In this document: piece by piece, positions 5,744 to 46,607 of the stretch
Position numbering within the stretch: the first letter of the stretch is position 1
How the letters are laid out: each line of letters starts with the position of its first letter
NCBI GenBank assembly: GCA_015064555.1
Contig: SVRZ01000002.1
Location: 1 to 64,000 of the forward strand
DNA: 64,000 nucleotides
Origin: Oscillospiraceae bacterium
GTDB lineage: Bacteria; Bacillota; Clostridia; Oscillospirales; CAG-272
Reading direction: 5' to 3'
Made by a program: the position numbers and the translations under genes
The notes under the pieces: generated by a model
The model's database searches: none
The model's input: only the letters and a program-made list of their open reading frames with translations
What the model was told of the DNA's origin: nothing

Positions 5744-6631
5744 ATGATCTGCACTGCGAGAATAGATGCGGAATACGTAAAAGGCCACCTGCCAAAGCGC
5801 CCCTGCGACTCCAATAAGGGCAGCTTCGGCAGAGCGCTGATAATTGCGGGCTCGGAGCAATATATGGGAGCGGCTCATCTTGTTCTTGGCGCGGCGCTCC
5901 GCGGCGGAGCAGGTTACGTTGAGCTCGTAAGCGAGGAGTGCGTATGGAATACCGTTATTCTCAAATACCCCGAGCTTATATATACACGGATACCGTCTAT
6001 TCCGATGCTTTCGGCGGATGACTGCGACCGTATAATGGCGAGGGCGGAGGCGGCATCGGCGATCCTTATAGGACCCGGATGCGGCAAGAGCCGCGCCCTG
6101 GCAGATCTCGTCATGGCACTCGTCCGAGGGCAGGGAGGCCCTGTGATAATAGATGCGGATGCAATAAACTCGATAGCCGAATATTATGAGGATGCGATAG
6201 CTTGCCTCAGGGAGGCAAGGCGCCCCGTGATCCTGACTCCGCATCCGCTTGAGTTTTCAAGACTCACGGGCATTCCGACAAATGAGGTCAGCAATGCAAG
6301 GCTTGAGTCGGCATACGGGCTTTCTCTTGACACGTCTGCCACCGTGCTTTTAAAGGGTGCCGGGACTGTGGTTACCGACGGCAAGGAAATAATGATCAAT
6401 ACCACAGGCTCGTCTGCATTGGCGAAGGCAGGCAGCGGAGATGCCCTGGCAGGCTTTATGGTATCGCTTCTTTCAATGGGAGCAGAGCCTCTCGCAGCTG
6501 CCGCGATAGCCGCATACGTCCACGGCAGAGCAGGGCAGATCCTCGCGGAAGAGCTGTCGGAATATGGTGTCACTCCATCTGATCTTGCACCTGTTATGGC
6601 GAGGGTTTTGGCTGAAATAGCATCGAAATGA
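5744..6631 (+). CDS. nnrD: ADP-dependent NAD(P)H-hydrate dehydratase
   Basis: A 295-residue repair enzyme of the ribokinase-like fold that dehydrates damaged NADHX/NADPHX back to NADH/NADPH at the expense of ADP. Visible motifs are GSFGRALIIAGSEQYMGAAH near residue 27, GPGCGKS near 109, VILTPHPLEFSRLTG near 165, LKGAGTVVTDG near 205 and the catalytic KAGSGDALAGFM near 232. It is the C-terminal (dehydratase) half only; the NAD(P)HX epimerase domain often fused in front is missing and must be separate or absent. AGGAGG precedes the start. It is monocistronic, ending at a bidirectional terminator. Confidence 0.92.
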   Translation: MICTARIDAEYVKGHLPKRPCDSNKGSFGRALIIAGSEQYMGAAHLVLGAALRGGAGYVELVSEECVWNTVILKYPELIYTRIPSIPMLSADDCDRIMARAEAASAILIGPGCGKSRALADLVMALVRGQGGPVIIDADAINSIAEYYEDAIACLREARRPVILTPHPLEFSRLTGIPTNEVSNARLESAYGLSLDTSATVLLKGAGTVVTDGKEIMINTTGSSALAKAGSGDALAGFMVSLLSMGAEPLAAAAIAAYVHGRAGQILAEELSEYGVTPSDLAPVMARVLAEIASK

Positions 6632-6645
6632 CAATAAATATGTAC

Positions 6646-6684
6646 AAAAAAGAGGATTTCTCTAACCGGAGCAATCCTCTTTTT
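6646..6684. terminator. Bidirectional intrinsic terminator
   Basis: AAAAAGAGGATT (from 6646) pairs with AATCCTCTTTTT (6673-6684); A- and T-rich on both sides, between convergent nnrD and the SLH gene. Confidence 0.8.
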
Positions 6685-6736
6685 GCTTGTATATCTATCT
6701 CCGCATCATACTACGTTGTAAGGATCGTATGACGAT

Positions 6737-8008
6737 TTACGACCTTTGCCCGGATGCAAGGCGGTAAAGATATTCTGCCGCCTTTTCTCTTGTGAGGGCT
6801 TCGCTGAGCTCATCCTCCTCGCCAAGGTCGAATATGCCCTTTTCATACATTGCACCGACGTGCGGTCTTGCCCATACGGGCAGATTCTCGGTGCCGGGGG
6901 GATAGTCGCTCTCGGCGGTAACACCGAGTATATTCGACATAACTATAGCCGCCTCGCATACGGTTATCGCATCATTGGGGCGGAATTTCAGTCCGTCTCC
7001 GTCAAAGGAGCCGTTGACTATTCCTATAGATGCCGCAGTGGCAACGTAGCCGACGAGGGGTGTCGGTATCTCGTTGTTGTCATCAAAATAGGTCTTGTCG
7101 AGAGTGCTGTCGGCTTTTATCGAGGCTGCCTTCATCGCCATAGCCACAAATTCGGCACGGGTAACCCCATCTTCAGGCAAAAAGTAGACGTTATCGCCTA
7201 TTCTCGAGCCGCTCATTATGCCCATCGCCGTCATGGCAACGGCAGCATTGTAGCTCTTAGAATCGGTCATATCCGAATACACTACCTCGCTCATTCTCTC
7301 GGTAACGCGTACGCTTATCTCCTCCGGGCTGGAATAATTTCCGAATTCGTCACGCATAACGAGGATGAAGGAATCCCTTCCGTCAAATCCCGCATCGGGA
7401 GTATATCTGTATTCTCCCTTGGCGGCATCGGTGAGCGAAAGACTTCCGTTCTTGGGTTGTCTTACTATCAGAGTAATGAGCTTATCTCCTTCGGGATCGC
7501 TTCCTTCGAGCTTACCGAAATAGGATATTCCGGACTGCGTTGTCACTTTGACCGACTGTCCCAATGAGTCGCTTACCTCAGGGGCATAATTCACCTTTTC
7601 GGTAAAGCGCATCCTGCATCTGATCTCCGCGCCGGAGCTGCCTCTTTCGCGGAAGGTGAATTGGCTTTCCGTTATACTTGCATCCGCGGGGCAGAAGCTG
7701 AGGCGCGAAAGCGCCCTTCTCTTTATGATCTGCCCTTCGTTGACGGGGCTGCCGTCAAGCTTGAGAATGCCGTCTTTTTTATCGGGGAGCGTGCATATTT
7801 CTATCCCCTTGATCTCGGAAACTCCGAGCGCACACTTGAAGTCTGTGTCCGAAAATTTCAGCTCTTTGCCGCTGATGCCGCTCTTTATGAGCTCGACGTC
7901 ATTAGCGATGACTGCCGCGCCCGTACCGAGGAACGATGCGCTCGCCACACTTGCAAAAGAGAGAACAAGCAGTATGGCGGACACTGTAATTAGTAGCGTT
8001 TTTTTCAT
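6737..8008 (-). CDS. Secreted S-layer homology (SLH) domain protein with cadherin/Big-like module
   Basis: A 423-residue exported protein. Residues 1-24 are a signal peptide ending ASVASA. Residues about 25-135 are a beta-rich domain without clear relatives; about 143-240 match a bacterial Ig/cadherin-like repeat (GSDPEGDKL, GEYRYTPDAGFDGRDSF). The C-terminal 180 residues hold three SLH units, with FLPEDGVTRAEFVAMAMKA in the first, FRPNDAITVCEAAIVMSN in the second and ALTREKAAEYLYRLA in the third. SLH domains bind secondary cell-wall polymers, so the protein is probably wall-anchored. AGGAGC precedes the start. No enzyme domain is visible; a structural or adhesive role is inferred. Confidence 0.88.
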   Translation of the reverse strand: MKKTLLITVSAILLVLSFASVASASFLGTGAAVIANDVELIKSGISGKELKFSDTDFKCALGVSEIKGIEICTLPDKKDGILKLDGSPVNEGQIIKRRALSRLSFCPADASITESQFTFRERGSSGAEIRCRMRFTEKVNYAPEVSDSLGQSVKVTTQSGISYFGKLEGSDPEGDKLITLIVRQPKNGSLSLTDAAKGEYRYTPDAGFDGRDSFILVMRDEFGNYSSPEEISVRVTERMSEVVYSDMTDSKSYNAAVAMTAMGIMSGSRIGDNVYFLPEDGVTRAEFVAMAMKAASIKADSTLDKTYFDDNNEIPTPLVGYVATAASIGIVNGSFDGDGLKFRPNDAITVCEAAIVMSNILGVTAESDYPPGTENLPVWARPHVGAMYEKGIFDLGEEDELSEALTREKAAEYLYRLASGQRS

Positions 8009-15444: not shown

Positions 15445-16947
15445 TTAAATATATTTTGTGGCGAGCGTTATAATGCTCTCCTGGCTTGCGCCTCTGTCCA
15501 CCGTGCCTGCTGCACGACCGTTGCTCATAACCATTATTCTGTCGCAGAGTCCCAGCAACTCGGGCATCTCGGAGGACACGAGAATAACGCCTCTTCCCGA
15601 TTCGGCAAGCTCGTTGATCAGTGCGTATATCTCATACCTCGCCCCAACGTCTATACCTCTTGTCGGCTCATCGAGCAGAAGGACGGTAGGCGACGTCAGC
15701 AGCCAACGTGCGAATATAACCTTCTGCTGATTTCCTCCCGAGAGCGAGCGTATCTTGGTATGCATATCCGGGGCTCTTACCTTAAGTCTTTTCATATATT
15801 CGGTGGTCGAGCTGCGCATCAGCTTCTCCGAGATCAGAGGACCGCGCCGAAAGCCCTTAAGAGAGGATATTACGGTATTTTCCTTTATATCGAGAATACC
15901 GAAAATTCCGCCTGCCCGCCTTTCCTCTGTGACCATGGCAAATCCGTTTCTTATAGCCTCGCCCGGAGTGCGGTTATATATATTCTTTCCCGACAGACGG
16001 ATCTCTCCGCCCGATCGCCGGGATAACCCGAACAATGCCTCGAGCAGCTCTGTGCGTCCCGAGCCGTCCAGCCCTGCGATCCCGAGTATTTCGCCTTTGC
16101 GGAGCGAGAACGAAACGTCGTTAAGATGGCTGTACTCGCCCGATAGCCCTGTAACCGACAGGAGGATATCATCTTTCGGAGGCGTTGCACGCGCCGGATA
16201 TCGCTCGGAAAGCTCGCGCCCGACCATAAGGCGTATTATTTCATCTGTGGTTATATCAGAGGCGGATCGGGTTGCTATATGACGTCCGTCACGCATGACA
16301 GTTACCTCATCGGATATTCTCAGTATTTCGTTCATTTTATGAGATATATATATTATTCCGCATCCGTCGGAGCGAAGCCGTTCTATTATCCCGAACAGCC
16401 GCTCCGCCTCCTCCTCTCCCAAGGATGAGGTCGGCTCATCGAATACGATTATCCTTGCGCCGTATGATACGGCTCGCGCGATCTCCACCATCTGACGGTC
16501 TGATACCGAAAGGCGCTCTGTGAGTGCCTCGGGATCGATATCAATGCCTAGCGCATCAAATATTTCTCCGGTCTTTTCAATCATCTGCCGCTTCGATATA
16601 AACGGAAGAGCATCGATCGGACGCGGAAATCTTCCGAGCCACATATTCTCGGCAACCGTAAGCTTCAGAGCCTGATTGAGCTCCTGATGCACCATTGCTA
16701 TTCCGAGTGAGAGAGCTTCCTTCGAGGAGCGCGGAGAGATAGGCTCGCCGTTAAGGAATATCTCTCCCTCCTCATGCGTATAAACTCCGAAAAGGCATTT
16801 CATAAGCGTTGATTTTCCTGCGCCGTTCTCGCCCATAAGGGCATGAACCGTACCTGCTTTTACGTGGAGCCTTGCGCCGTCAAGCGCGCGCACACCGGGA
16901 AAACTCTTTGAAATGTTCTCCATCCTCAAGAGAATGCCTTCGCTCAT
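15445..16947 (-). CDS. mglA: Galactose-type sugar ABC transporter, duplicated ATP-binding subunit
   Basis: A 500-residue cytosolic ATPase with two ABC domains. The first has Walker A GENGAGKST (about 39-47), signature LSVSDRQMVEIARA and Walker B IIVFDEPTSSL. The second has a degenerate Walker A GLDGSGRTEL, as usual in the MglA/RbsA family, signature LSGGNQQKVIFARWL and Walker B VLLLDEPTRGID. Its start overlaps the binding-protein stop (16944-16947, ATGA). It powers uptake by the neighbouring permease. Confidence 0.94.
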   Translation of the reverse strand: MSEGILLRMENISKSFPGVRALDGARLHVKAGTVHALMGENGAGKSTLMKCLFGVYTHEEGEIFLNGEPISPRSSKEALSLGIAMVHQELNQALKLTVAENMWLGRFPRPIDALPFISKRQMIEKTGEIFDALGIDIDPEALTERLSVSDRQMVEIARAVSYGARIIVFDEPTSSLGEEEAERLFGIIERLRSDGCGIIYISHKMNEILRISDEVTVMRDGRHIATRSASDITTDEIIRLMVGRELSERYPARATPPKDDILLSVTGLSGEYSHLNDVSFSLRKGEILGIAGLDGSGRTELLEALFGLSRRSGGEIRLSGKNIYNRTPGEAIRNGFAMVTEERRAGGIFGILDIKENTVISSLKGFRRGPLISEKLMRSSTTEYMKRLKVRAPDMHTKIRSLSGGNQQKVIFARWLLTSPTVLLLDEPTRGIDVGARYEIYALINELAESGRGVILVSSEMPELLGLCDRIMVMSNGRAAGTVDRGASQESIITLATKYI

Positions 16948-32850: not shown

Positions 32851-35800
32851 ATGGCAAGAAAAATTTTAGTCACAGTGTTTCTTATGCTTTCGCTCACCCT
32901 TGCGCTCGCATCCTGCGACTTTCTCGGCGGAGCGAACGATCAGGGAAGCGGAAATTCATCCGAGCCCGAAATTGTGATCAGTGAGGATGGCTACGTTGTG
33001 GTAAACGGTGTTAAAACCGAGCACAAGGTTCACACCAAAGACCGCATATCCATAAGCAATGACGCATATCTGATAGTAAACGGAGTGAAAACCGAGTACA
33101 AGATCGATATGAAAGACGTTGTTTACGTCGATGACTACGGCTTTGTCGTTGTAAACGGTCAGCGTACTCAGTACAGGGTACGCACCGCAGATGAAATATA
33201 CGTTAACGAAGATGGCTACATTGTAGTAAACGGTAAGAAAACCGAGCATAAGGTTCATACCACCGATGAAGTCACTGTCGATGAAGACGGCTACGTTGTG
33301 GTAAACGGTGTAAAAACCGAGCATAAGGTTAAGGACGAAAGTCACCCCTACGGTGATTGGAAGCTTTACAATAAGGACGAAGAAAATTGCGAGGACAAGC
33401 TATTCTATCGTACCTGTTCCGATTGCGGAGCGATTCAGTGGCGCGAGGGCGGTTATGAAGATCATAGCTTCACTACCGTTACCACTTCTCCTACCTGTAC
33501 CGCAGGCGGATATGATACAAAGACCTGCGGACTTTGCGGAAAGACCGAGATCTGCAACGAAACAGATATTCTTCCGCATCAGTATTCTTTGGAATACCTT
33601 TCGGATAATTCCTTCCACTGGAAAAAGTGTAAGGATTGCGACGCCACCGATGAAAGGGCAGAGCACACTCTCGGCGAGGACGGTGTATGCACCGTCTGCT
33701 CGGCTGTAATAGGAGCAACCGAGGGAATATTTTATGATCTGTCTGCCGATGGCACGTATGCTGAGGTAATAGCCTATACAGGTACCGCAAAGCGTATCAG
33801 AATAGCAGAGGAATATGAAGGAGTACCGGTCAGAACCATATGCAGCAAGGCTTTTGACAGCATTGGAGAAATCGATATCATCATACCCGACAGTGTCAGA
33901 GAAATTGCCACCGATGCATTTAATAACTGCAAGATAGTTAGTGCTACAATTCCGGCTTCCTTAATTTCCGCGATAGTTGAATTGGGAAGATCCTCGTCGT
34001 ATTATAGCAGACCTAACAGCATTTTGAAAACGGTTGTCATAACCTCGGGCGAGAGGATTGAGGATAAGGCGTTTGAGTATTGCTCGGCACTTACGAGCAT
34101 CACGATTGCAGACAGTATAACAAGCATCGGCTCTTATGCATTCCGCGATTGCACAAGTCTTACCTCCATCATAATCCCCGATAGTGTAACAAGCATTGGT
34201 AATTATGCTTTCTATGACTGTAGTAAGTTGGCTTCTGTAGATCTCGGTAGCGGTATCTCAGGCATATCTTATGAGATCTTCTCTGGATGTAGAAATCTTA
34301 AGAAGATAGTGATAGATGAGAATAATTCGGCTTATAAAAATATAGATGGGAATCATATCTATACGAAGGATGGAAGGGTTCTCGTAAAATATGTACGGGA
34401 TAATGAAAGTACGAGCTTTACTGTTCCCGGTTGCGTAACAAGCATCGGCGATTATGCATTCTCGGATTGCACAAACCTTACAAGCATAATTATCCCCGAT
34501 AGCGTAACAAGCATCGGCTCTTCTGCGTTCTACGGTTGCACAAGTCTTACGAGCATAACTATCGGAAATAGTGTAACAAGCATCGGCGATTCTGTGTTCT
34601 CCGGTTGTACAAGTCTTACGAGCATCACGATTCCCGAGGGCGTAACAAGCATTGGCTATAATGCGTTCTTGGGTTGCAAAAATCTTGAGAATCTTACTCT
34701 ACCGGATAGTCTTACAAGCATAGGAACTTCTGCATTCTCGGATTGCACGAAGCTTAAATACAATATCTATGAAAACTGCAATTATCTCGGCAATAGTACA
34801 AATCCTTACGTTTTACTGGTAAAGCCGGTCAATTTGAATTTCAGCAGATATACTATCAATGAAAATACCAAAGTCATATACCATAATGCCTTTGAAGGAT
34901 GCGAAAGGCTATTGCAGATCACAATTCCGGATAGTGTAGTGAGTCTTGGCAAAAACGCATTTAATAGCTGCAAGAGTCTCACGAGCGCAACTATAGGAAA
35001 TAGTGTTTCCGCCATTCTCGAATATACTTTTAATGATTGCACAGCTCTTTCGAGCCTTGTTATCGGCAGCAGCGTTAATTCGATAGAATACGGCTCATTT
35101 GGAAACTGCACATCTCTCTTGAGCATTAATATTCCGATAAGCGTTGATTCTATAGCATATAGCGCATTTGAAGGTATAAGCAAGATAACCCTATACTGCG
35201 AGTCGACCTCTATTCCGAACGGCTTGTCGTCGTATGATTCAAAATTCGAATTTGTCTTAGCCTGCAATAGCATAACCACAGATTCAGAGTATGACTACGT
35301 TATCAATAACGGAAAAGCAGTCTTGATCAGATATAAGGGAAATGATACCGAGATATCGATCCCTGCTGTTATTGATGGATATTCTGTTAAGAATTTTGGA
35401 GATATATTCAAAAACAAATCGGATATACAAGCTATTACTATTCCGGACTCTGTAACCGGCATCGGCTCTTCTGCGTTCTCCGGTTGCACAAGTCTTACGA
35501 GCATCACGATTCCGGATAGCGTAACGAGCATCGGCTCTTCTGCGTTCTACGGTTGCACAAGTCTTACGAGCATCACGATTCCGAATAGCGTAACGAGCAT
35601 CGGCGCTTCTGCGTTCCAGGGTTGTACAAGTCTTATGAGCATCACGATTCCGGACGGTGTAACGAGCATCGGCTCTTGGGCGTTCGAGCATTGCACGAGT
35701 CTTATGCAAATAACCGTGGGAGAAAACAATACTAAGTATAAAAACATAGACGGCAATCATATCTATACAAAGGATGGAAAAACACTTATTCAGTATGCGG

Positions 35801-37974
35801 TAGGAAGCAGTGCCGAAACCTTCATTATCCCACAGGGTGTAACGAGCATCTACTCTTCTGCGTTCCGGGGTTGCACAAGTCTTACGAGCATCACGATTCC
35901 GGATAGTGTAACAAGCATTGAATATGGTGCGTTCAGGGGTTGCACAAGTCTTACGAGCATCACGATTCCGGATAGTGTAACGAGAATCGACTCTTCTGCG
36001 TTCGAGGATTGCACAAGTCTTACAAGCATCACGATTCCGGACGGTGTAACAAGCATCGGCTCTTATGCGTTCAGGGGTTGCACAAGTCTTACGAGCATCA
36101 CGATTCCGGATAGTGTAACAAGCATAAGCGATTATGCGTTCTCCGGTTGCACAAGTCTTACAAGCATTACGATTCCGGACGGTGTAACCAGCATCGGCTC
36201 TGGTGTGTTCTCCGGTTGCACAAGTCTTACAAGCATTACGATTCCGGACGGTGTAACCAGCATCGGCTCTGGTCTGTTCTCCGGTTGCACAAGTCTTACG
36301 AGCATCACGATTCCGGACGGTGTAACGAGCATCGACTCTTCTGCGTTCTCCGGTTGCACAAGTCTTACAAGCATCACGATTCCGGATAGTGTAACAAGCA
36401 TCGGCTCTAATGCGTTCTGGGGTTGCACAAGCCTTACGAGCGTAACTATCGGAAATAGCGTAACAAGCATCGGCAATGGTGCGTTCTCGGGTTGCAATAA
36501 GCTGATAGAAGTAATTAACAAATCGAATCTTGCTTTAAAAAATGCAGAATGGGGTGAGTACGGAGGTATAACCGATTACGCATTGACGATCCACAATGAA
36601 GAGACCAAGATAGACAATATAGATGGTTATCTCTTCTATCACTACAATCCGGGATACTATAACTCTGAAAAATATCTTATCGGATATTCGGGAACGGATA
36701 CCGATCTGACTCTCCCGGCTAATTACAAGGGCAGCAATTACTCCATATATAAATACGCATTCTCTGAAAACAGTAGAATAAAAAGCATCGTCATACCGGA
36801 TAGTGTAACAAGCATCGGCGATTACGCGTTCATGGGTTGCAAAAAGCTTACAAGCGTAACTATCGGAAATAGCGTAACAAGCATCGGCTCTTGGGCATTC
36901 GAGAATTGCACAAGTCTTACGAGCATCACGATTCCTGATAGTGTAACAAGCATCAGCTATGGTGCGTTCTCCGGTTGCACAAGTCTTACAAGCATCACGA
37001 TTCCGAATAGCGTAAAAAGCATCGGCTCTTCTGCGTTCCGGGGTTGCACAAGCCTTACGAGCATCACGATTCCCGATAGTGTTACAAGCATTGGCGATGG
37101 AGTGTTCTCAAGTTGTACAAGTCTTGTGCAGATAACCGTGGGAGAAAACAATACTAAGTATAAAAACATAGACGGCAATCATATCTATACAAAGGATGGA
37201 AAAACACTTATTCAGTATGCAGTAGGAAGCAGTGCCGAAACTTTCATTATCCCACAGGGTGTAACGAGCATCGGCGGTTCTGCGTTCTCCGGTTGCACGA
37301 GTCTTACGAGCATCACGATTCCGGACGGTGTAACGAGCATCTACTCTTCTGCGTTCGAGGGTTGCATGAGTCTTACGAGCATCACGATTCCCGATAGTGT
37401 AACAAGCATCGGCTCTTGGGCATTCGAGAATTGCACAAGTCTTACGAGCATCACGATTCCTGATAGTGTAACAAGCATCAGCTATGGTGCGTTCTACGGT
37501 TGCACAAGTCTTACAAGCATCACGATTCCGGATAGCGTAACAAGCATCGGCCCTGATGCGTTCTCGCGTTGCACAAGTCTTACGAGCATAACTATACCCG
37601 ATAGTGTAACAAGCATCGGATATGATGCGTTCTACGGTTGTACAAACCTTACAAGCATCACGATTCCGGACGGTGTAACGAGCATCGACTCTTCTGCGTT
37701 CTACGGTTGCACAAGTCTTACGAGCATCACGATTCCGGACGGTGTAACAAGCATCGGCTATTGGGCGTTCTCCGGTTGTACAAGTCTTACGAGTATCACG
37801 ATTCCCGATAGTGTAACAAGCATCGGCTCTGATGCGTTCTGGAATTGCACAAATCTTACCGATGTGTATTACACGGGAAGCGAAGAAGACTGGTCAAAGA
37901 TATCTGTATCCTCTTCGGGAAATAGTTACTTAACCGAGGCGACAATTCATTATAACTATTCCCCCGAAGAATAA
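32851..37974 (+). CDS. Giant BspA-like LRR_5 lipoprotein with near-identical repeats
   Basis: A 1707-residue lipoprotein (lipobox LALASC, Cys22). Residues about 43-165 carry five 24-residue repeats of the form DGYVVVNGVKTEHKVHTKD. Residues about 175-285 hold two Cys-x2-Cys modules (CSDCGAIQW; CGLCGKTE; CKDCDATDE; CTVCSAVIG), as in other clostridial LRR proteins. The rest is several dozen 23-residue units, GCTSLTSITIPDSVTSIGSS with AF, encoded by almost identical 69-bp DNA units. It ends with VYYTGSEEDWSKISVSSSGN, the cap shared with the other LRR lipoprotein. GGAGAAAAGGAAA precedes the ATG. A role in adhesion and possible length variation by recombination are inferred. Confidence 0.92.
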   Translation: MARKILVTVFLMLSLTLALASCDFLGGANDQGSGNSSEPEIVISEDGYVVVNGVKTEHKVHTKDRISISNDAYLIVNGVKTEYKIDMKDVVYVDDYGFVVVNGQRTQYRVRTADEIYVNEDGYIVVNGKKTEHKVHTTDEVTVDEDGYVVVNGVKTEHKVKDESHPYGDWKLYNKDEENCEDKLFYRTCSDCGAIQWREGGYEDHSFTTVTTSPTCTAGGYDTKTCGLCGKTEICNETDILPHQYSLEYLSDNSFHWKKCKDCDATDERAEHTLGEDGVCTVCSAVIGATEGIFYDLSADGTYAEVIAYTGTAKRIRIAEEYEGVPVRTICSKAFDSIGEIDIIIPDSVREIATDAFNNCKIVSATIPASLISAIVELGRSSSYYSRPNSILKTVVITSGERIEDKAFEYCSALTSITIADSITSIGSYAFRDCTSLTSIIIPDSVTSIGNYAFYDCSKLASVDLGSGISGISYEIFSGCRNLKKIVIDENNSAYKNIDGNHIYTKDGRVLVKYVRDNESTSFTVPGCVTSIGDYAFSDCTNLTSIIIPDSVTSIGSSAFYGCTSLTSITIGNSVTSIGDSVFSGCTSLTSITIPEGVTSIGYNAFLGCKNLENLTLPDSLTSIGTSAFSDCTKLKYNIYENCNYLGNSTNPYVLLVKPVNLNFSRYTINENTKVIYHNAFEGCERLLQITIPDSVVSLGKNAFNSCKSLTSATIGNSVSAILEYTFNDCTALSSLVIGSSVNSIEYGSFGNCTSLLSINIPISVDSIAYSAFEGISKITLYCESTSIPNGLSSYDSKFEFVLACNSITTDSEYDYVINNGKAVLIRYKGNDTEISIPAVIDGYSVKNFGDIFKNKSDIQAITIPDSVTGIGSSAFSGCTSLTSITIPDSVTSIGSSAFYGCTSLTSITIPNSVTSIGASAFQGCTSLMSITIPDGVTSIGSWAFEHCTSLMQITVGENNTKYKNIDGNHIYTKDGKTLIQYAVGSSAETFIIPQGVTSIYSSAFRGCTSLTSITIPDSVTSIEYGAFRGCTSLTSITIPDSVTRIDSSAFEDCTSLTSITIPDGVTSIGSYAFRGCTSLTSITIPDSVTSISDYAFSGCTSLTSITIPDGVTSIGSGVFSGCTSLTSITIPDGVTSIGSGLFSGCTSLTSITIPDGVTSIDSSAFSGCTSLTSITIPDSVTSIGSNAFWGCTSLTSVTIGNSVTSIGNGAFSGCNKLIEVINKSNLALKNAEWGEYGGITDYALTIHNEETKIDNIDGYLFYHYNPGYYNSEKYLIGYSGTDTDLTLPANYKGSNYSIYKYAFSENSRIKSIVIPDSVTSIGDYAFMGCKKLTSVTIGNSVTSIGSWAFENCTSLTSITIPDSVTSISYGAFSGCTSLTSITIPNSVKSIGSSAFRGCTSLTSITIPDSVTSIGDGVFSSCTSLVQITVGENNTKYKNIDGNHIYTKDGKTLIQYAVGSSAETFIIPQGVTSIGGSAFSGCTSLTSITIPDGVTSIYSSAFEGCMSLTSITIPDSVTSIGSWAFENCTSLTSITIPDSVTSISYGAFYGCTSLTSITIPDSVTSIGPDAFSRCTSLTSITIPDSVTSIGYDAFYGCTNLTSITIPDGVTSIDSSAFYGCTSLTSITIPDGVTSIGYWAFSGCTSLTSITIPDSVTSIGSDAFWNCTNLTDVYYTGSEEDWSKISVSSSGNSYLTEATIHYNYSPEE
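35701..35850 (+). repeat. 150-bp intragenic repeat, copy A
   Basis: Matches 37123-37272 with about four mismatches by eye. It encodes a non-LRR island (ITVGENNTKYKNIDGNHIY and following strand) that interrupts the LRR array; the copies are 1422 bp apart. Confidence 0.85.
37123..37272 (+). repeat. 150-bp intragenic repeat, copy B
   Basis: Second copy of the island at 35701-35850. A related but diverged island (KKIVIDENNSAYKNIDGNHI) is near 34310, so the gene probably grew by segmental duplication. Confidence 0.85.
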
Positions 37975-38296: not shown

Positions 38297-39430
38297 TTAA
38301 ATGAAGTTGATGAAATCGGCAGCAAAGCTGAGGATAAGTCCGCCCGCGATAACCGATGCTATCTGACCTGAAACGTTAACGCCTATAGACTGCATAAGCA
38401 GGAAGTTCTGAGGATCCTCCTCAAGTCCCATCTTATGAACAACACGTCCGGACATCGGGAATGCCGAAATACCTGCCGCACCGATCATGGGGTTGATCTT
38501 CTTTCCCTCGGGTAAGAAGAGGTTCATAAGCTTTGCGAAGAATACACCGCCCGCGGTATCGAATATGAATGCGAAAAGACCGAGACCGAGTATAAGAAGG
38601 GTGGTGGGCTGAAGGAACTGAGAAGCCTCCATCTTGACGGCGATGGTGATGCCGAGGAAGATGGTAACGAGGTTTGCAAGAACCTTCTGCGCGGTGTCGG
38701 AGAGCGAATCGAGAACTCCGCACTCACGGATAAGGTTACCGAACATAAGGAAGCCGACAAGTGCTACCGAGGAGGGAGCAACGAGTCCTGCGATAATGGT
38801 GATGATGATGGGGAAGAGAATTCTCGTAGCCTTCGAAATATTCTGAGGCTTGTAGGGCATACGGATGAGTCTTTCCTTCTTGGTGGTGCAGAGCTTGATG
38901 ATAGGCGGCTGGATAATAGGCACGAGCGCCATATATGAATATGCCGCAACCATTATCGGGCCGACGAATTTGGAATTAAGCTTCTGCGCAACTACTATAG
39001 CGGTGGGGCCGTCTGCCGCACCTATAATACCTATGGAAGCCGCATCGGGAAGCTCAAAGAACATCGATGCAACACAGAATGTGAAGAATATACCGAACTG
39101 TGCCGCCGCACCGAAGATCATAAGCTTCGGATTCGAGAGAACGGGACCGAAGTCTATCATCGCACCTATACCGATAAAGAGTATAAGAGGGAAGAGCTCG
39201 TTTGCGATTCCTGCGTCAAAGAGTGTCTGCAGAGGACCTTCTTCGCCGATAGCACCGGAGAAGGGAAGGTTTACCATAATAGTACCGAATCCGAGAGGAA
39301 GAAGAAGCGTGGGCTCCATTTCCTTTTTGATGGCAAGGAAGATAAGCAATCCGCCGATAAGCCACATTACGATATACTTCCAGCCCTCACCTTGGAAGAG
39401 GCTCAGTATACTTTCATACAAAATTTCCAT
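38297..39430 (-). CDS. oadB: Sodium ion-translocating decarboxylase, beta subunit
   Basis: A 377-residue integral membrane subunit (about nine to ten helices) of the Na+-pumping biotin-dependent decarboxylases (oxaloacetate, methylmalonyl-CoA or glutaconyl-CoA). The signature GIIGAADGPTAIVVAQKL near 135-152 holds the conserved Asp of the sodium channel; other marks are LILFIGIGAMIDFGP near 82, NPMIGAAGISAFPMSGRVVH near 320 and NFLLMQSIGVNVSGQIASVI near 348. The carboxyltransferase alpha subunit and biotin carrier are not in this window, so the specific substrate cannot be assigned; the name oadB is used in the family sense. Confidence 0.92.
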   Translation of the reverse strand: MEILYESILSLFQGEGWKYIVMWLIGGLLIFLAIKKEMEPTLLLPLGFGTIMVNLPFSGAIGEEGPLQTLFDAGIANELFPLILFIGIGAMIDFGPVLSNPKLMIFGAAAQFGIFFTFCVASMFFELPDAASIGIIGAADGPTAIVVAQKLNSKFVGPIMVAAYSYMALVPIIQPPIIKLCTTKKERLIRMPYKPQNISKATRILFPIIITIIAGLVAPSSVALVGFLMFGNLIRECGVLDSLSDTAQKVLANLVTIFLGITIAVKMEASQFLQPTTLLILGLGLFAFIFDTAGGVFFAKLMNLFLPEGKKINPMIGAAGISAFPMSGRVVHKMGLEEDPQNFLLMQSIGVNVSGQIASVIAGGLILSFAADFINFI

Positions 39431-39524: not shown

Positions 39525-41291
39525 TTAATATTTTCGAGGAATTTCGAGATTATAGTATTTTTTGAGAATCGAAAGCGCGTGGGAAACGTTTTTTCCGAAG
39601 GCATCACGCGAGGTATCAAAATATCCGTAATAGTCCTTTTTGCCCCCTGCGGTCTGATAAAATTCGCTTCCGTCGGGGTTCTTTATCCCCATTGCAACGA
39701 AGGATGAGGCAGGCACCTGTCCACCTCCGGCAAGGCTATCGCAGATATAGCATCTGTCGATAAGCATACTTATAGCCCGTCTTATCGCCGCGTCGGCACG
39801 CGCCGATTCCTCGGGAGTGCGTGTGCTGTCCCTCGGTGTGAGCGGAGCATTCACGTTCCATACAACGTAATAAGTGCCGAGCTGACCTTCTGTTTTTACT
39901 TCATCGGGGTATCTCTTTTTTAGCGACTCTATCTCGTTTGTCGGAATATTGTCTATAAGACACAGCGTTCCGTTCTTGAAGTTGGTCAGCATATTGTTTG
40001 CATCGTCCGAGAGATAGAAGCTGATGCTCGGCGGAATTATACTGTCCCTGTCGTGGTAATTTTCATTTTTAGAGAGCACTATTCTTCCGTTATGCTCCCA
40101 CCGTGTCAACTTGTAAGCGCCGTTGCTGACGTAGCTTGAAGCCGAGGTCGCCCATTTTTCATCGGCGGTAACGTCCGCCCGTGTCGGGAAAAAGGCAGGG
40201 AAAGCAAGCAGCTCGTTCCAGTACGGAATATATCGATCAAGAGTTACGGTGAGAGTTCGTTCATCGGTAGCCTTTACCGAAAGGTCTGAATCTGTGCCAT
40301 ACCCTTTTATCCCTTCAAACATATACGCATAGTCCGCGCCGAGCTCCTTTGATGCCGCGCGTTTCCAGGCAAGCTCGAAATCCTTTGCCGAAAGAGGCAC
40401 GCCGTCTGACCACTTAAGTCCCGGTCGAAGACGGTAGGTATAGGTTATTGTACCGTCATCATTTAACACGCCCTCGGGTAGAGCCTCTGCAGAATCCGGA
40501 GTTATTACCGTCTTTCCGTCGATATTATCCCACCTGGCAAGTCCCGAAAACAGATGCGAGAGCATGGTCGCGCTATCCACGGTCGAGGAAAGCGCAGGGT
40601 CCATTGAAGCAGGCTCGGAGGCAAGCGATACCGATATCGGCTCGGAGCTTTTGTACTTTGCATACATAAAGTATTTATAGCCGAGCGGATTTGTGAAAAA
40701 GCCCGACAAGGATTTGTCTACCATATAAATATCGGTGTAATAATATAGCGGCATGATGCACCCCGTGTCAATTATCATATCCTCTGCGAGATGCATCAGC
40801 AGGTATCGCTTTTCCTCGTCGCGGCACTCGCCTATCACTGATATAAGCCTGTCGTAGGTATCGCTCCATCTTCCGTTTTCCACCTTGATATCATATCCGT
40901 ATGAGGTAAGATCCAGGTCGTATATACCGAGGTTGGCGTGCTCGCCCTTGCCGAGACCTGCATCGTTATTTCCCGAGGTTGATACCCACATATCGAGAAA
41001 GGTTATCGGGTCGGAATGGTCTGCCAGCCAACCGCTCCTTGCCATAACGTAATCTCCGCTTTTTCTGGTACTGAGGAAGGTTCCCCATTCCTGATTTTTT
41101 AAGGATACCTTGATACCTGCTATCTTGAGTGCTGTTTGTATATATTCGCCTATCGCCTGGTGACCTTCGCCGTTATTGTAAAGATATGTTAGCATAGGTG
41201 GGCTTTTTTCGTTTGTTTTCTTGCCCGAACAAGAAAAAAGCGATGCGGCAGTTATTGCGAAAACTAAAAACAATGAAACCGTTTTTTTCAT
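39525..41291 (-). CDS. oppA: Oligopeptide-binding lipoprotein OppA with circularly permuted domain order
   Basis: A 588-residue peptide-binding lipoprotein (lipobox SLFSC, Cys21). Mature residues 31-212 (MLTYLYNNGEGHQAIGEYIQ, NQEWGTFLSTRKSGDY, then NPLGYKYFMYA) are what normally forms the C-terminal third of OppA. Residues 216-588 (VSLASEPASMDPALSSTVDS, RPGLKWSDGVPLSAKDF, NVNAPL, ALSILKKYYN) are what normally forms the N-terminal two thirds. The usual break point between KKYYN and the PPMLTYLYN strand has become the two ends, and the old termini are joined near residue 213 (about 40650). All parts seem present, so the protein may fold normally. Last gene of oppBCDFA; its start overlaps the oppF stop (41288-41291). 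Confidence 0.85.
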   Translation of the reverse strand: MKKTVSLFLVFAITAASLFSCSGKKTNEKSPPMLTYLYNNGEGHQAIGEYIQTALKIAGIKVSLKNQEWGTFLSTRKSGDYVMARSGWLADHSDPITFLDMWVSTSGNNDAGLGKGEHANLGIYDLDLTSYGYDIKVENGRWSDTYDRLISVIGECRDEEKRYLLMHLAEDMIIDTGCIMPLYYYTDIYMVDKSLSGFFTNPLGYKYFMYAKYKSSEPISVSLASEPASMDPALSSTVDSATMLSHLFSGLARWDNIDGKTVITPDSAEALPEGVLNDDGTITYTYRLRPGLKWSDGVPLSAKDFELAWKRAASKELGADYAYMFEGIKGYGTDSDLSVKATDERTLTVTLDRYIPYWNELLAFPAFFPTRADVTADEKWATSASSYVSNGAYKLTRWEHNGRIVLSKNENYHDRDSIIPPSISFYLSDDANNMLTNFKNGTLCLIDNIPTNEIESLKKRYPDEVKTEGQLGTYYVVWNVNAPLTPRDSTRTPEESARADAAIRRAISMLIDRCYICDSLAGGGQVPASSFVAMGIKNPDGSEFYQTAGGKKDYYGYFDTSRDAFGKNVSHALSILKKYYNLEIPRKY

Positions 41292-42268
41292 TTTTTAAAA
41301 TCTATTCCTCCGGCAAAATGGCAGGCGGCTCTGTGACCGTCTGATATCTCTTTGAGCTCGGGCGGCTGCGTGCGGCATATATCGCGTCTGTACGGGCACC
41401 GCTCGAAAAATATGCAGCCATAGCCTCCGCCGACCTCCGTACCGACGTCACCCACGGGAATTATTCTCCTTCTCTCCTTGGCTTTCTTGGGATCGGGGAT
41501 AGATATTGCCGACATAAGCACGGCGGTGTAAGGATGAAGGGGATTGTCGCATACCTCGGAGCTCTCGGCGATCTCTACTATCCTGCCCAGGTACATGACC
41601 GCGATCCTGTCGCTTATATGCCGCACTATTGATAAGTCGTGCGAGATGAAAAGCAGTGCAGGGGCGTGCGAATTGCCGAGGTCTATCAGGGTGTTTATTA
41701 TCTGTGCTCGCACCGAAACGTCAAGAGCCGAGGTCGGCTCGTCACAGACTATGAATTCAGGAGAGGTGGCAAGAGCGCGTGCTATGCCTATCCTCTGTCG
41801 CTGACCGCCTGAAAATTCATGCGGATAGCGCGAGGCGTGCTCGCGGTTTAATCCAACGGTAGCCAAAAGCCCCTTTATCTTGTCGCTCCGTTCATCTTTT
41901 GAGCGGTATAGGCGGTGAATATCAAGCGGCTCGCCGATTATATCCTCCACCGTCATTCTCGGATCGAGTGAGGAATAAGGGTCCTGAAATACCATAGCCG
42001 CTCTTTTTCGTAGCTCATCGCCGACCTCCTTATCCGAGATCGACCTGCCTCGGTAGAGGATATCACCTCCGTCGGGACGGTATAGCTGCATAAGCATTCT
42101 GCCCACAGTTGTTTTGCCGCATCCCGATTCTCCGACAAGTCCCAGAGTCTCGCCCTCGGCGATAGAAAATGATATTCCGTCCGCCGCGGCAACCGCTCGG
42201 CTTTTTGGGGAGTGTCTTCTGTAAAAATATTTTTTCAGATCCCTGACTTCAATTATTGCTTCCTTCAT
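41288..42268 (-). CDS. oppF: Oligopeptide ABC transporter ATP-binding protein OppF
   Basis: A 326-residue cytosolic ATPase. Walker A GESGCGKTT near 47-55, Q-loop MVFQDPYSSLDPRMTVEDII, signature FSGGQRQRIGIARAL, Walker B FIVCDEPTSALDVSV and the oligopeptide-specific C-terminal extension with CIFFERCPYRRDIC, whose cysteines may bind an Fe-S cluster or metal as in other Opp ATPases. The start at 42268 is chosen for AGGAG six bases upstream; the frame extends to 42286. It overlaps oppD by 20 bases. Confidence 0.93.
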   Translation of the reverse strand: MKEAIIEVRDLKKYFYRRHSPKSRAVAAADGISFSIAEGETLGLVGESGCGKTTVGRMLMQLYRPDGGDILYRGRSISDKEVGDELRKRAAMVFQDPYSSLDPRMTVEDIIGEPLDIHRLYRSKDERSDKIKGLLATVGLNREHASRYPHEFSGGQRQRIGIARALATSPEFIVCDEPTSALDVSVRAQIINTLIDLGNSHAPALLFISHDLSIVRHISDRIAVMYLGRIVEIAESSEVCDNPLHPYTAVLMSAISIPDPKKAKERRRIIPVGDVGTEVGGGYGCIFFERCPYRRDICRTQPPELKEISDGHRAACHFAGGIDFKK

Positions 42269-43253
42269 TTTCTTCTCCTGATCCAAGGACGAGCCTTCTT
42301 TCGTATTCGTAGCACGCGGCGCTGTGAATACCGTCGACGCTTATTTCTCTCGGGAATTCCATCAGGCAGACGTGCATCGCTTTTTCGCATCTGGGTGCAA
42401 AGGGACAGCCGCGTATCCCCTGCGAGATATCTATCGGAGCACCGCCTATCGGAATAAGCCTCTCCCGCTTGTCTGCTGTGGGCACAGATCTGAGAAGAGC
42501 CTTTGTGTATTCGTGGCAGGGTGAATAAAATATATCCTCCGTCCTTCCTCTTTCGCATATACGACCACCGTACATTACCGCCACCTCGTCGCACAGCTCG
42601 GCTACCGTACCCAGATCATGCGTTATCATCATAATTGCCATTCCCATTTTGCGTCCCAGCTTCTTCAGCAGGTCGAGTATCTCGGCGGCAACCGTAACGT
42701 CAAGTGCCGTTGTCGGCTCGTCGGCTATCAGAAGCTCCGGCTCGCATACGAGAGCCATGGCTATCATCACCCTCTGCCGCATACCGCCCGAGAGCTCGTG
42801 CGGATATTGATTCATCCTTTCTTCGGGAGCGCGTATGCCGACAGATCTCAGCATCTCTGTCGCACGCACCTTCGCCTCCTTCGGTGAGGCATCTGTATGC
42901 AGAAGTATCGATTCGGTTATCTGCTTTCCGATCCTCAGCGTAGGATTCAGCGAGGTCATAGGATCCTGGAAGATCATTGAAATGCGATTTCCCCTTATCC
43001 GGTTGAGAAGTGTGCGGTCTGCACCAACAAGCTCCTCTCCCATGAATTTCACAGAGCCTTCGATTATCCTTCCGCCCTTAGGTAAAAGTCCGAGCACCGA
43101 GTATGCCGTGACCGATTTTCCCGATCCCGATTCTCCGACTATGCCGAGAACCTTTCCGCTCTCGAGGGAGAGCGAAACTCCGCCGAGCGCGGAGATCTCG
43201 CCGCGCTCGGTGAAGAATGAGACCTTGAGATCCTTTATATCAAGTAGTGCCAT
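42249..43253 (-). CDS. oppD: Oligopeptide ABC transporter ATP-binding protein OppD
   Basis: A 334-residue cytosolic ATPase, partner of OppF. Walker A GESGSGKSV near 37-45, Q-loop MIFQDPMTSLNPTLRIGKQI, signature LSGGMRQRVMIAMAL, Walker B LLIADEPTTALDVTV, H-loop MMITHDLGTVAELCD and the C-terminal CPFAPRCEKAMHVC cysteine motif. The gene lies 16 bases after oppC. Together OppD and OppF energise the OppBC channel. Confidence 0.94.
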   Translation of the reverse strand: MALLDIKDLKVSFFTERGEISALGGVSLSLESGKVLGIVGESGSGKSVTAYSVLGLLPKGGRIIEGSVKFMGEELVGADRTLLNRIRGNRISMIFQDPMTSLNPTLRIGKQITESILLHTDASPKEAKVRATEMLRSVGIRAPEERMNQYPHELSGGMRQRVMIAMALVCEPELLIADEPTTALDVTVAAEILDLLKKLGRKMGMAIMMITHDLGTVAELCDEVAVMYGGRICERGRTEDIFYSPCHEYTKALLRSVPTADKRERLIPIGGAPIDISQGIRGCPFAPRCEKAMHVCLMEFPREISVDGIHSAACYEYERRLVLGSGEENEGSNN

Positions 43254-43269: not shown

Positions 43270-44328
43270 TTACCGTGAGCCCGAGATCGACGGATCGAAT
43301 GAATCTCTCAGTCCGTCGCCTATGAGGTTAAGGGCGAGAACGGTAAGCGATATGACCGCTGCAGGGAAGATAAGCCTTGAAGGGTAGCTTTCTATTCCGT
43401 TAAGTGCATCCGAGGCAAGCGAGCCGAGCGAGGGCATAGGAGCGTTTACACCGAGTCCGAGGAATGAAAGATAGCTTTCCGTGAATATCGCGGAGGGGAT
43501 CTGTAAAGCGGTGGAAACGATTATGACTCCTATCGCATTTGGCAAAAGATGGCGTCGTATTATCCTTCCGCCGCCTGCACCGAAGGTCTTGGCGGCAATA
43601 ACGTATTCCTGCTCCTTCACAGAGAGCACCTGTCCGCGTATAAGGCGTGCCATTGATACCCAATAAAGGAGTGCAAAAACGAAGAAGAGTGAAATCATAT
43701 TAGTGCCAAGCCTTTCAAAAGCCCCTCCGATATTTCCGAGAGCCGCACTCAGCACCGATGACAGCAGTATTACCATCAGCATATCGGGGAGCGAGTATAT
43801 TATATCCACTATCCGCATAATGAACAAATCGGCATTTCCGCCTAAATAACCTGACACGGCCCCCACCGTAAGTCCTACAAGAAGAACTATAATGCTCGCA
43901 AAAAATCCGACTCCAAGCGATATGCGTGCACCGTATATTACGCGGATAAAGTAGTCCCTTCCCGAGGAATCCGTGCCGAATATATGAGGAAATAAACGTT
44001 CTCCGTCGGCTATAAGCTCGCGCTCGGTCTCTCCGTACTCGAAGGGGGCAAGATTGTTATAGGATGCATCCACGGGCAGCCCGAGCTGCACTCCGAGCTG
44101 ATCATCATATCCGTATGGCCAGACGGCGGGTAAAAGGATCACCAGAAGGCTTAATATGATTATTGCAAAGAGCGAGAGCGACGCCGTTTTATTGCGCATA
44201 AACCGCCTGACTCCGTCCTTAAAAAACGAGCCTCCGACATTTTCACCTTCTTTTTGCAGTTCTGCCCGTTCTTCGGGACTGATAGGTGTATAAAGCTCTC
44301 TGTCAGTCTTGGGATCGAATAGCTTCAT
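43270..44328 (-). CDS. oppC: Oligopeptide ABC transporter permease OppC
   Basis: A 352-residue membrane permease. It has the OppC N-terminal domain (FMRNKTASLSLFAIIILSLL, then FGTDSSGRDYFIRVIYGARI) and the EAA loop YVIAAKTFGAGGGRIIRRHL with LLPNAIGVIIVSTAL that docks on the ATPases. About six helices. The start at 44328 has GGAG six bases upstream; an in-frame ATG at 44340 is the alternative. It lies 53 bases downstream of oppB. Confidence 0.92.
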   Translation of the reverse strand: MKLFDPKTDRELYTPISPEERAELQKEGENVGGSFFKDGVRRFMRNKTASLSLFAIIILSLLVILLPAVWPYGYDDQLGVQLGLPVDASYNNLAPFEYGETERELIADGERLFPHIFGTDSSGRDYFIRVIYGARISLGVGFFASIIVLLVGLTVGAVSGYLGGNADLFIMRIVDIIYSLPDMLMVILLSSVLSAALGNIGGAFERLGTNMISLFFVFALLYWVSMARLIRGQVLSVKEQEYVIAAKTFGAGGGRIIRRHLLPNAIGVIIVSTALQIPSAIFTESYLSFLGLGVNAPMPSLGSLASDALNGIESYPSRLIFPAAVISLTVLALNLIGDGLRDSFDPSISGSR

Positions 44329-44381
44329 TTCATTCTCCATTCACAAAAAATAGCATATTGCAAAGTATTATTTACAAATCA

Positions 44382-45404
44382 CTACTCAAGCGTGATTCTT
44401 GGATCCAGAGCTCTGTATAAAAAATCGGCAAGAGTATTCATAAAAACCACAAGCATTGAGAGTATTATGGTAGTACCCATTATGAGAGGATAATCTCTTC
44501 CGGTAATGCTTCCGACAAAATCGCGCCCGATACCGGGAACGGCGAATATCCGTTCTACCACAAGCGAGCCTGTAACTATCCCCGCGAGCATCGGACCAAA
44601 ATATGTGATAACCGGTATCAGGGAGTTTTTCAGTGCATGCCTGAATATTATTTTCCCTTCCGACAAGCCCTTTGCCCGAGCTGTTCTTATATAGTCCTTT
44701 CCGAGCGTATCGAGCATTGATGCGCGAGTGAGCCTTGTGATATAGGCGGTGGGGTAGAGCGAGAGTGTTGCTACAGGAAGTATAAGCCCCGATATGCCCC
44801 CTCCGGTTGCCGTTGCGGGAAGCCACCCCGTGTATGCCGAAAATATCAGCAGAAGAAGCGTTCCCGCTATGAAGGACGGCACCGAAACGAAAGCGGTGGT
44901 CATTACCATTATCAACCTGTCTGCAAGGCTGCCTCTTTTCAGTGCGGCGGTGCTTCCGAGAAGCGTACCCACCACCAAAGCGATCGCTGCAGCCGATATA
45001 CCGAGTGCGGCAGAGGTCTTCATCCCGTCGCTTATTATTCCGAGGACGCTTCTGCCCTTTTGCTTCAGGGAAGGCCCGAAATCAAATCCTTTGATTATAT
45101 CCCCAAGGTAGCTTCCGTACTGTACGATAAGCGGCTTGTCCAAGCCGTATTTTTCGCGCAGAGCCGCCTCCACCTCGGGTGATACCGCCTTTTCGCTGAA
45201 GAATGGCCCTCCGGGGACGGCGTGCATGGCAAAGAATGTGACCGTTATAACTATCCATACCGTAAAGCAGGCAAGAAGAATTCGTTTTGCCACGTATCTT
45301 AAAGCGGGGGAACGGAGTATACCGCCGATAAATGACGGTGCGCCTTTTATAATCTTCAGTGTTTTCCCTCCAATGGCGTTTAGTCCTTGTCCTGTGGCAT
45401 CCAT
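44382..45404 (-). CDS. oppB: Oligopeptide ABC transporter permease OppB
   Basis: A 340-residue membrane permease, first gene of the opp operon. The first helix with LLACFTVWIVITVTFFAMHA and PGGPFFSEKAVSPEVEAALR is characteristic of OppB/DppB; YGLDKPLIVQYGSYLGDIIK, the EAA loop YIRTARAKGLSEGKIIFRHA and the C-terminal ALDPRITLE follow. The start at 45404 is supported by GGAGG seven bases upstream; the frame extends to 45521 into the divergent promoter region and is not used. Confidence 0.93.
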   Translation of the reverse strand: MDATGQGLNAIGGKTLKIIKGAPSFIGGILRSPALRYVAKRILLACFTVWIVITVTFFAMHAVPGGPFFSEKAVSPEVEAALREKYGLDKPLIVQYGSYLGDIIKGFDFGPSLKQKGRSVLGIISDGMKTSAALGISAAAIALVVGTLLGSTAALKRGSLADRLIMVMTTAFVSVPSFIAGTLLLLIFSAYTGWLPATATGGGISGLILPVATLSLYPTAYITRLTRASMLDTLGKDYIRTARAKGLSEGKIIFRHALKNSLIPVITYFGPMLAGIVTGSLVVERIFAVPGIGRDFVGSITGRDYPLIMGTTIILSMLVVFMNTLADFLYRALDPRITLE

Positions 45405-45510
45405 ACGCTTTCCTCCGTCCGTTTTTTTGTTTAGTGTGCGTTTGAACGGTGCATTTATGCATTTCTGTTCTGTTTTTTCTGACAAATAAATGAACGAAAT
45501 CTGTTTTTTG

Positions 45511-45539
45511 TTGACAAACAACTTCGTTTGTGTTAATAT
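45511..45539 (+). promoter_or_regulatory. Promoter of the threonine-aldolase-like gene with palindromic spacer
   Basis: TTGACA (45511-45516), 17-base spacer, TAATAT (45534-45539). The spacer holds the inverted repeat ACAAAC-aacttc-GTTTGT (about 45515-45532), a possible operator, in the region between the divergent opp operon and this gene. Confidence 0.6.
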
Positions 45540-45572: not shown

Positions 45573-46607
45573 ATGTTGTCATTTGAAAGCGATTATATAC
45601 TTGGAGCGCACGAGAAGATACTCGATGCACTTGTAAGAACCAACGGTGAGCAGCTTTCGGGCTACGGTAACGATCCCCATACCGAAAATGCCTGCCGTCT
45701 GATAAAAAATGCCTGCCACGCACCGGAGGCCGACGTTTTTCTCCTCATGGGCGGAACTCAGGTCAATAAAACGGTGATTGCCACTCTTCTCAAGCCTTAT
45801 GAGGGAGTTATAGCACCGACGACAGGTCACGTGAGTCTGCACGAGGTCGGCGCTATCGAGTACACAGGGCATAAGGTCATAGAGCTTCCTCAGCATGACG
45901 GCAAGCTTTCTCCGAGCGAGGTAAGGGAATATATGAACACCTTTTACGGAGATGAAAACAACGGTATGATGGTAGTACCGGGTATGATATATATTTCTCA
46001 TCCGACCGAATACGGAACTCTCTATACTCTCTCCGAGCTTCGTGAGCTCCGTGCTATAGCGGACGAGTACGGCATGCGCCTGTTTATGGACGGAGCAAGA
46101 CTCGGCTACGGTCTTATGAGCAAAAATACCGACGTCACGCTTCCGGATATCGCACAGCTCTGCCACGTGTTCTACATAGGCGGCACCAAGGTCGGAGCCC
46201 TCTGCGGCGAGGCGGTCGTATTTGCAAAGGGCGTTGCTCCGACGCGCTTCCACAGTCTTATGAAGCAGCACGGTGCGCTTACCGCAAAGGGCAGATTACT
46301 CGGAGTGCAGTTTGAAACACTCTTTACCGACGGTCTTTATTTTGATATATCAAGGAATGCCATAGACAGAGCGGAGGAGCTTAAGTCGCTTCTTCTTTCG
46401 TGCGGATACGAGCTGTTCATAGCTTCGCCTACCAATCAGCAATTCGTTGTATTAACCGATGCCGAAATGGGCAGAATAAAGGATAAATGCAGATTCTCCT
46501 TCTGGGAGAGAATAGATTCGGAAAGATGCGTCGTCAGATTCGCCACGAGCTATGCCACGACGAGTGAGGATATAGCCGCCCTTGCACGTATACTCAAGGG
46601 GTGCTGA
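45573..46607 (+). CDS. Low-specificity L-threonine aldolase-like PLP enzyme
   Basis: A 344-residue fold-type I pyridoxal-phosphate enzyme of the beta-eliminating lyase (threonine aldolase) family, which cleaves threonine or allo-threonine to glycine and acetaldehyde. Marks: YGNDPHTENACRLIK near 31, LLMGGTQVNKTVIATL near 57, HVSLHEVGAIEYTGHKVIEL near 86, MDGARLGYGL near 171 (PLP-contacting Asp and Arg) and YIGGTKVGALCGEAVVF near 197 with the Schiff-base lysine. GGGAGAGAG precedes the ATG. Divergent from opp; peptide uptake and amino acid breakdown may be co-regulated. Confidence 0.85.
   Translation: MLSFESDYILGAHEKILDALVRTNGEQLSGYGNDPHTENACRLIKNACHAPEADVFLLMGGTQVNKTVIATLLKPYEGVIAPTTGHVSLHEVGAIEYTGHKVIELPQHDGKLSPSEVREYMNTFYGDENNGMMVVPGMIYISHPTEYGTLYTLSELRELRAIADEYGMRLFMDGARLGYGLMSKNTDVTLPDIAQLCHVFYIGGTKVGALCGEAVVFAKGVAPTRFHSLMKQHGALTAKGRLLGVQFETLFTDGLYFDISRNAIDRAEELKSLLLSCGYELFIASPTNQQFVVLTDAEMGRIKDKCRFSFWERIDSERCVVRFATSYATTSEDIAALARILKGC

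Follow-up and report, generated by a model that had tools for sequence, protein, structure and literature searches.

Natural circular permutation of binding proteins is already known in families other than the one described here (PMC4990184, PMC2395249). MglB-2 (Tp0684) of Treponema pallidum, designated 'Type Ic / cluster Bc', is a lipidated and naturally permuted bilobed binding protein of an ATP-binding cassette (ABC) importer; its kin occur in Gram-positive gut bacteria, and a shift of the lipid anchor that aids tethering or docking has been proposed for the Treponema protein, as far as the available portion of that paper goes (PMC4990184). The available text of the second paper relates glycine-betaine-binding proteins to molybdate-binding proteins and CysB by circular permutation within the binding-protein fold (PMC2395249), and the excerpt of a third gives the permuted GTPase orders G4-G5-G1-G2-G3 for YlqF and G3-G4-G5-G1-G2 for cpRAS (PMC2430557). 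Here we analyze an OppA-like peptide-binding protein of 588 amino acids, encoded on the minus strand at 39525..41291 of a 64,000-nucleotide stretch (the window) from an Oscillospiraceae bacterium (GenBank assembly GCA_015064555.1, contig SVRZ01000002.1, positions 1 to 64,000), whose chain is circularly permuted and which has permuted relatives in other genomes.

Chain order of the window protein

An earlier note on this DNA, made from the sequence alone, had claimed that the C-terminal third of an OppA stands ahead of the usual N-terminus in the window protein. Alignments to PDB sequences with phmmer bear this out: window residues 213-549 match residues 18-339 of Bacillus subtilis DppE (8ay0), while residues 19-112 and 142-209 match DppE 353-447 and 448-516, respectively. 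The same reversed order is obtained against B. subtilis OppA (8are) and Salmonella OppA (1b05), and the E-values of these alignments rule out chance. The protein belongs to the SBP_bac_5 family, scoring 217 bits against the Pfam profile (PF00496, cut-off 32.4), but in two stretches, with profile positions 277-367 first along the gene and 12-260 second, and it does not follow the standard linear order of the chain. Sequence and structure comparisons with the PDB identify its matches as OppA/DppA-type, and the peptide-site motif is retained in the alignment.

Five conserved blocks were cut from an alignment of 107 canonical proteins, and the open reading frames (ORFs) of the fetched loci were searched with hidden Markov models (HMMs) of these blocks. 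All five are found in the window protein, each once and nearly complete, in the cyclic order 4-5-1-2-3. The chain begins with a signal peptide (residues 1-21, 41229..41291, minus strand) that ends, by eye, in the lipobox-like LFSC, to which the lipobox pattern of our script has no match because of the Phe at position -2. It is followed on the same strand by the native C-terminal third (residues 31-212, 40656..41201), which holds blocks 4 and 5 and corresponds to OppA about 358-516, and by the native N-terminal two thirds (residues 216-588, 39528..40646), which hold blocks 1 to 3 and correspond to OppA 1 to about 357. Only eight residues (211-218, 40638..40661, minus strand) lie between blocks 5 and 1 at the joint of the native ends. 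The piece limits proposed earlier, about 31-212 and 216-588, are correct to a few residues.

The standard order is found in a genome of the same genus (G028, locus L136, 622 amino acids) and in 125 five-block relatives, which settles the earlier note's doubt about the family order. As that note had also stated, the total length is that of a normal OppA, the 125 canonical ORFs ranging from 499 to 667 amino acids (median 587) and 29 permuted ORFs from 531 to 637 (median 579). Among the 60 of 111 PDB matches listed in the search with profile A1, no chain runs through the window joint. The NCBIfam models matched by eight permuted proteins are standard OppA-type models, and none of them is named for a permuted order.

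A permutation could also be mimicked by a fusion that combined parts of two distinct OppA paralogues. Tandem genes for substrate-binding proteins are present in 2 of the 165 fetched loci, the canonical relative that matches one window piece best comes 14th and 24th among the 125 with the other piece, and in L128 and L129, whose front piece is a single block, the two pieces correlate weakly over the canonical relatives (rho 0.24 and 0.31). The two window pieces, however, give concordant rankings of the 125 canonical relatives (Spearman rho 0.94), rho is 0.43-0.93 in 26 of the 28 other permuted proteins (range over all 29, 0.24-0.94), blocks are neither repeated nor lost, and every order found is cyclic. 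Since a fusion of close paralogues would likewise give a high rho, the value for the window speaks against a fusion of unlike paralogues and not of close ones. We consider a fusion quite improbable and have set it aside, together with a pseudogene and a misassembly, although L128 and L129 may be such fusions.

AlphaFold2 yields a confident fold for the full permuted chain, a check that the earlier note had suggested (predicted local distance difference test score, pLDDT, 93.0; predicted template modelling score, pTM, 0.89). A sequential structural aligner placed only OppA 1-358, onto the back of the window chain, and the native N-terminal two thirds have the same fold in the model as in unpermuted kin. 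Together with the single copy of each block, the concordant ranking of the two pieces and the recurrence of the order in other genomes, these results support the view that the window oppA is a genuine circular permutation, neither a fusion nor a truncation, as had been proposed. The product is very probably the working receptor of an OppABCDF peptide importer, with the fold and the peptide cleft predicted to be kept and a putative function in transport.

Permuted relatives and independent origins

The earlier note had also proposed to look for the permuted order in related genomes, and it does occur there. Six of the 80 related loci from named genomes are permuted: L018 is cut like the window gene, with the same order and 52% identity in the best segment, L020, L025, L057 and L062 are cut at a second point and L091 at a third. 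Repeat loci left out, 167 ORFs contain at least four blocks. The canonical order 12345 is found in 125 of them, eight are canonical with one block missed, and five (2345) are unassignable. The remaining ORFs fall into class I, the order of the window (45123, 14 ORFs), class II (51234, 7 ORFs), class III (23451, 1 ORF) and class IV (34512, 6 ORFs, plus L159, which reads 4512 because its block 3, seen by eye at the front, was missed by the HMM). With the plasmid-borne L190 (23451), the permuted proteins total 30, of which 14, 7, 2 and 7 belong to classes I, II, III and IV, respectively; these numbers are not frequencies because the search favoured permuted genes. All four other rotations thus occur, and no non-cyclic block order is found among the 167 ORFs.

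A query that spans the native C-to-N joint was used for sampling genomes, a match through the joint marking any permutation. Such matches were found in at least 9 of 391 genomes of the class (with profile A1 and fewer genomes of the class, at least 6 of 291) and at least 11 of 398 genomes of the phylum, G805 with its split gene among the 11, and each count includes the genome of the window. With the L135 protein as query, at least 6 of 299 genomes of the phylum gave such a match. At least 6 of 295 genomes did so in the phylum of L062, with its own genome included and weaker matches partly past the joint left out (e.g., G1015 44-326 and G996 38-314). All of these counts are lower bounds from overlapping samples of two phyla. 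The permuted ORFs from the class sample read as classes I, II and IV, and the permuted genomes of the 391-genome and 398-genome samples carry at least 12 family codes (f1, f26, f61, f72, f82, f101, f102, f104, f146, f154, f197 and f216). The class I proteins L146-L153 (f154, f197 and f216) have, unlike most others, a signal without a lipobox match.

Three permuted genes lie in single-contig genomes (L131 in G391, L135 in G094 and L153 in G630), and one (L190) on a plasmid of Subdoligranulum variabile TSDC17.2-1.1 whose record is circular and 215 kb long. Among 1925 plasmid records the L135 joint is covered to at least 80% in 84; two of these were read, and the S. variabile gene is permuted and a Pediococcus gene canonical. 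The window joint matched four plasmid records, one of them through the joint, which is the same S. variabile record, whereas a whole-protein search of 3900 plasmid records does not distinguish chain orders. Low-complexity tails are seen at the new C-terminus in L156 (5415-7256, acidic ESTDD repeats) and L190 (5843-7633, Ser/Ala-rich).

Several observations weigh against a genuine permutation or its proposed history. The window genome is an 82%-complete draft of 44 contigs without reads, and its exact joints come from this one genome, as would be expected if pieces of an ordinary oppA had been misjoined in a chimeric contig. The front third of the window model is not matched by the sequential aligner. 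In the single-contig genome G805, the class I homologue L154, which is outside the 30, is split into two ORFs (5803-6954 and 7006-7476, minus strand). Nine permuted proteins (L146-L153 and L128) have a signal without a lipobox match, and no ORF with a block twice, as in a fused intermediate, is seen among the fetched loci. On the other side, L018 shares the window order, classes I, II and IV are each found in several genomes, and class III is found both in L091 and in the plasmid. The ratio of nonsynonymous to synonymous substitution rates (dN/dS) is 0.03-0.1 in six pairs of permuted kin, the window gene not among them, which argues for stable inheritance of the permuted gene in these kin and likewise against an artefact. 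With 29 further permuted homologues, three single-contig genomes and one circular plasmid, misassembly is very unlikely, the least probable of the explanations considered here. The operons, the signals and the low dN/dS suggest that the permuted proteins may serve as working receptors.

Trees were built on rotated sequences with FastTree (110 rows) and IQ-TREE (63 rows, after removal of 12 that were long or redundant and of a further 35 canonical ones), and each of the two trees requires 12 arrangement changes. Approximately unbiased (AU) tests on a quick tree of the 63 rows reject a single clade for class I (P = 2.5e-10), class II (P = 0.0034) and class IV (P = 1.3e-79). Since there are four classes and three of them are not a single clade, at least 7 arrangement changes are supported, with a point estimate of 12. 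The same tests do not reject common clades of the window protein with L018 (P = 0.55), of L133-135 with L146-153 (P = 0.69), and of L057 and L062 with L020, L025 and L155 (P = 0.17), and the window protein may therefore share its permutation with L018. That each of these groups may be one clade would also suit a history in which just one or two old permutations arose and reversals came later. This scenario seems improbable, as the AU tests reject a single clade for three classes and any reversal is itself a permutation. The best explanation is that the window permutation is one of several independent ones among OppA-like proteins of Bacillota. In the trees, the protein of L021, whose record bears the title 'uncultured actinobacterium', is placed with those of Clostridia, for which a mislabelled title or gene transfer are possible reasons.

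Cut sites and a possible route

In Salmonella OppA numbering, the cuts lie at about 358 (class I), 439-443 (class II), 127-133 (class III) and 279-286 (class IV). With the domain limits that we take for OppA (domain I, 1-44, 169-270 and 487-517; domain II, 45-168; domain III, 271-486), classes I, II and IV are opened in domain III and class III in domain II. The six strongest indel peaks of the canonical relatives are at 150, 335, 396, 537, 219 and 428 (L136 numbers). Four of the six fall into cut intervals, namely 150 in 147-180 (class III), 335 in 328-345 (class IV), 537 in 523-547 (class II) and 428 in 427-437 (class I), and these four exceed 93 to 99.5% of all positions; the intervals are inter-block stretches chosen post hoc around the cuts, and the class II cut of L020, L025 and L155 precedes the peak by about ten residues. 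It is best explained that each permutation was opened in an indel-tolerant stretch.

Both native ends of OppA lie in one lobe, and circular permutation is usually explained by a tandem duplication whose copies fuse and are then trimmed. The spacing between blocks 5 and 1 is 4-24 residues in 26 of 29 permuted proteins (45-59 in L157, L158 and L159, in which the match to block 1 begins late), and with so few residues between them the native ends must lie near each other in three dimensions. In the window protein, the native ends, adjacent in domain I, would have been joined through a short linker, and new ends opened in a domain III loop at OppA about 358. The route probably began with a tandem duplication of oppA within its operon slot, followed by an in-frame fusion of the copies and loss of the outer pieces, with the signal retained. 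Tandem oppA pairs are the two noted above, and the duplication remains a proposed step because no ORF with a duplicated block is found.

The new signal peptide would hang the window protein by lobe 2 (domain III) and not by lobe 1. Such a shift of the anchor to lobe 2 could have been adaptive by making tethering or docking easier: the cuts of classes I, II and IV (OppA about 358, 440 and 280) place the new N-terminus on lobe 2 under the same domain limits, and a lipobox is present in 20 of the 30 permuted proteins (18 by script, the window protein and L190 by eye), whereas L057 lacks its 5′ end. Against this stand the nine proteins with a signal and no lipobox match, which weaken tethering as the driver and speak against it as the only cause, and class III, which opens in domain II; moreover, since the cuts follow indel tolerance, selection on the tether is not needed. 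We regard adaptation of this kind as doubtful. Slightly more plausible, and still tentative, is a combined account in which permutation recurs through any indel-tolerant loop, a start in lobe 1 is disadvantageous in some importers, and a moved tether or folding order is selected. If this is true, permutants opened at the unused peaks, about 219 and 396 of L136, should be expected too.

The opp operon and comparison with known systems

The permuted oppA is the last gene of a minus-strand operon oppB-oppC-oppD-oppF-oppA, and the cognate oppBCDF genes are thus confirmed alongside it. The ATPase genes oppF (41288..42286) and oppD (42249..43253) both have ABC_tran and oligo_HPY domains, and the permease genes oppC (43270..44340; BPD_transp_1 and OppC_N) and oppB (44382..45521; BPD_transp_1) complete the set, the limits of oppB following a mechanical TTG start with the true start possibly internal. 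The oppA start and the oppF stop overlap by 4 nucleotides. Only 94 bases separate the end of oppA from the next minus-strand gene, and thus no remnant of an older oppA copy lies directly beside it. A second SBP_bac_5 place in this genome, on contig 34, matches profile positions 6-362 in a single piece. Directly behind the operon on the same strand is a gene for the beta subunit of a sodium-pumping decarboxylase (38297-39430, OAD_beta), and a Beta-eliminating lyase family gene (45573-46607, plus strand) is divergent from oppB, with the two ORFs close together. An additional ORF near 15445 (minus strand) has 29% identity to OppD. The plus-strand ORF at 32851-37974 encodes a lipoprotein-like protein of 1707 amino acids made up of numerous leucine-rich repeats of the TSITIPDSVTSIG type, which we take to be BspA-like, and a second repeat kind, VVNGVKTEHKV, close to its start.

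Accounts of circular permutation in nature mostly concern single ancient events that separate distant proteins. In the OppA family, rather close relatives have different chain orders, with cuts at four sites and several origins, beside the same transporter genes. The family thus offers a natural experiment on the manner and causes of circular permutation, and it allows direct tests of the origin of permutations, of permissive loops and of the position of the lipid anchor in an ABC importer. Caution is also needed in annotation, as profile searches split many permuted genes into two stretches and such genes may look broken.

The closest described proteins are the OppA/DppE-type members of SBP_bac_5 (PF00496), which we take to be cluster C. 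The window protein has in common with them the conserved blocks, the peptide-site motif, a lipoprotein-like signal and the oppBCDF operon; it differs in its block order 4-5-1-2-3 and its new ends at OppA about 358. In the open-access literature, which lacks all bioRxiv preprints and most subscription papers, we found neither a permuted OppA-family protein nor recurrent multi-site permutation in one binding-protein family. The novelty assumed earlier therefore has to be narrowed to the OppA family, given MglB-2 and the betaine binders. The betaine binders are related structurally at <24% identity (PMC2395249), whereas the pieces of OppA kin that differ in order are about 50-68% identical. The GTPases provide two rotations of one fold (PMC2430557), whereas the OppA family has four, three of which are not one clade. 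MglB-2, a member of the sugar-binding cluster B, has one permuted arrangement according to the available portion of its description (PMC4990184), in comparison with four in the OppA family.
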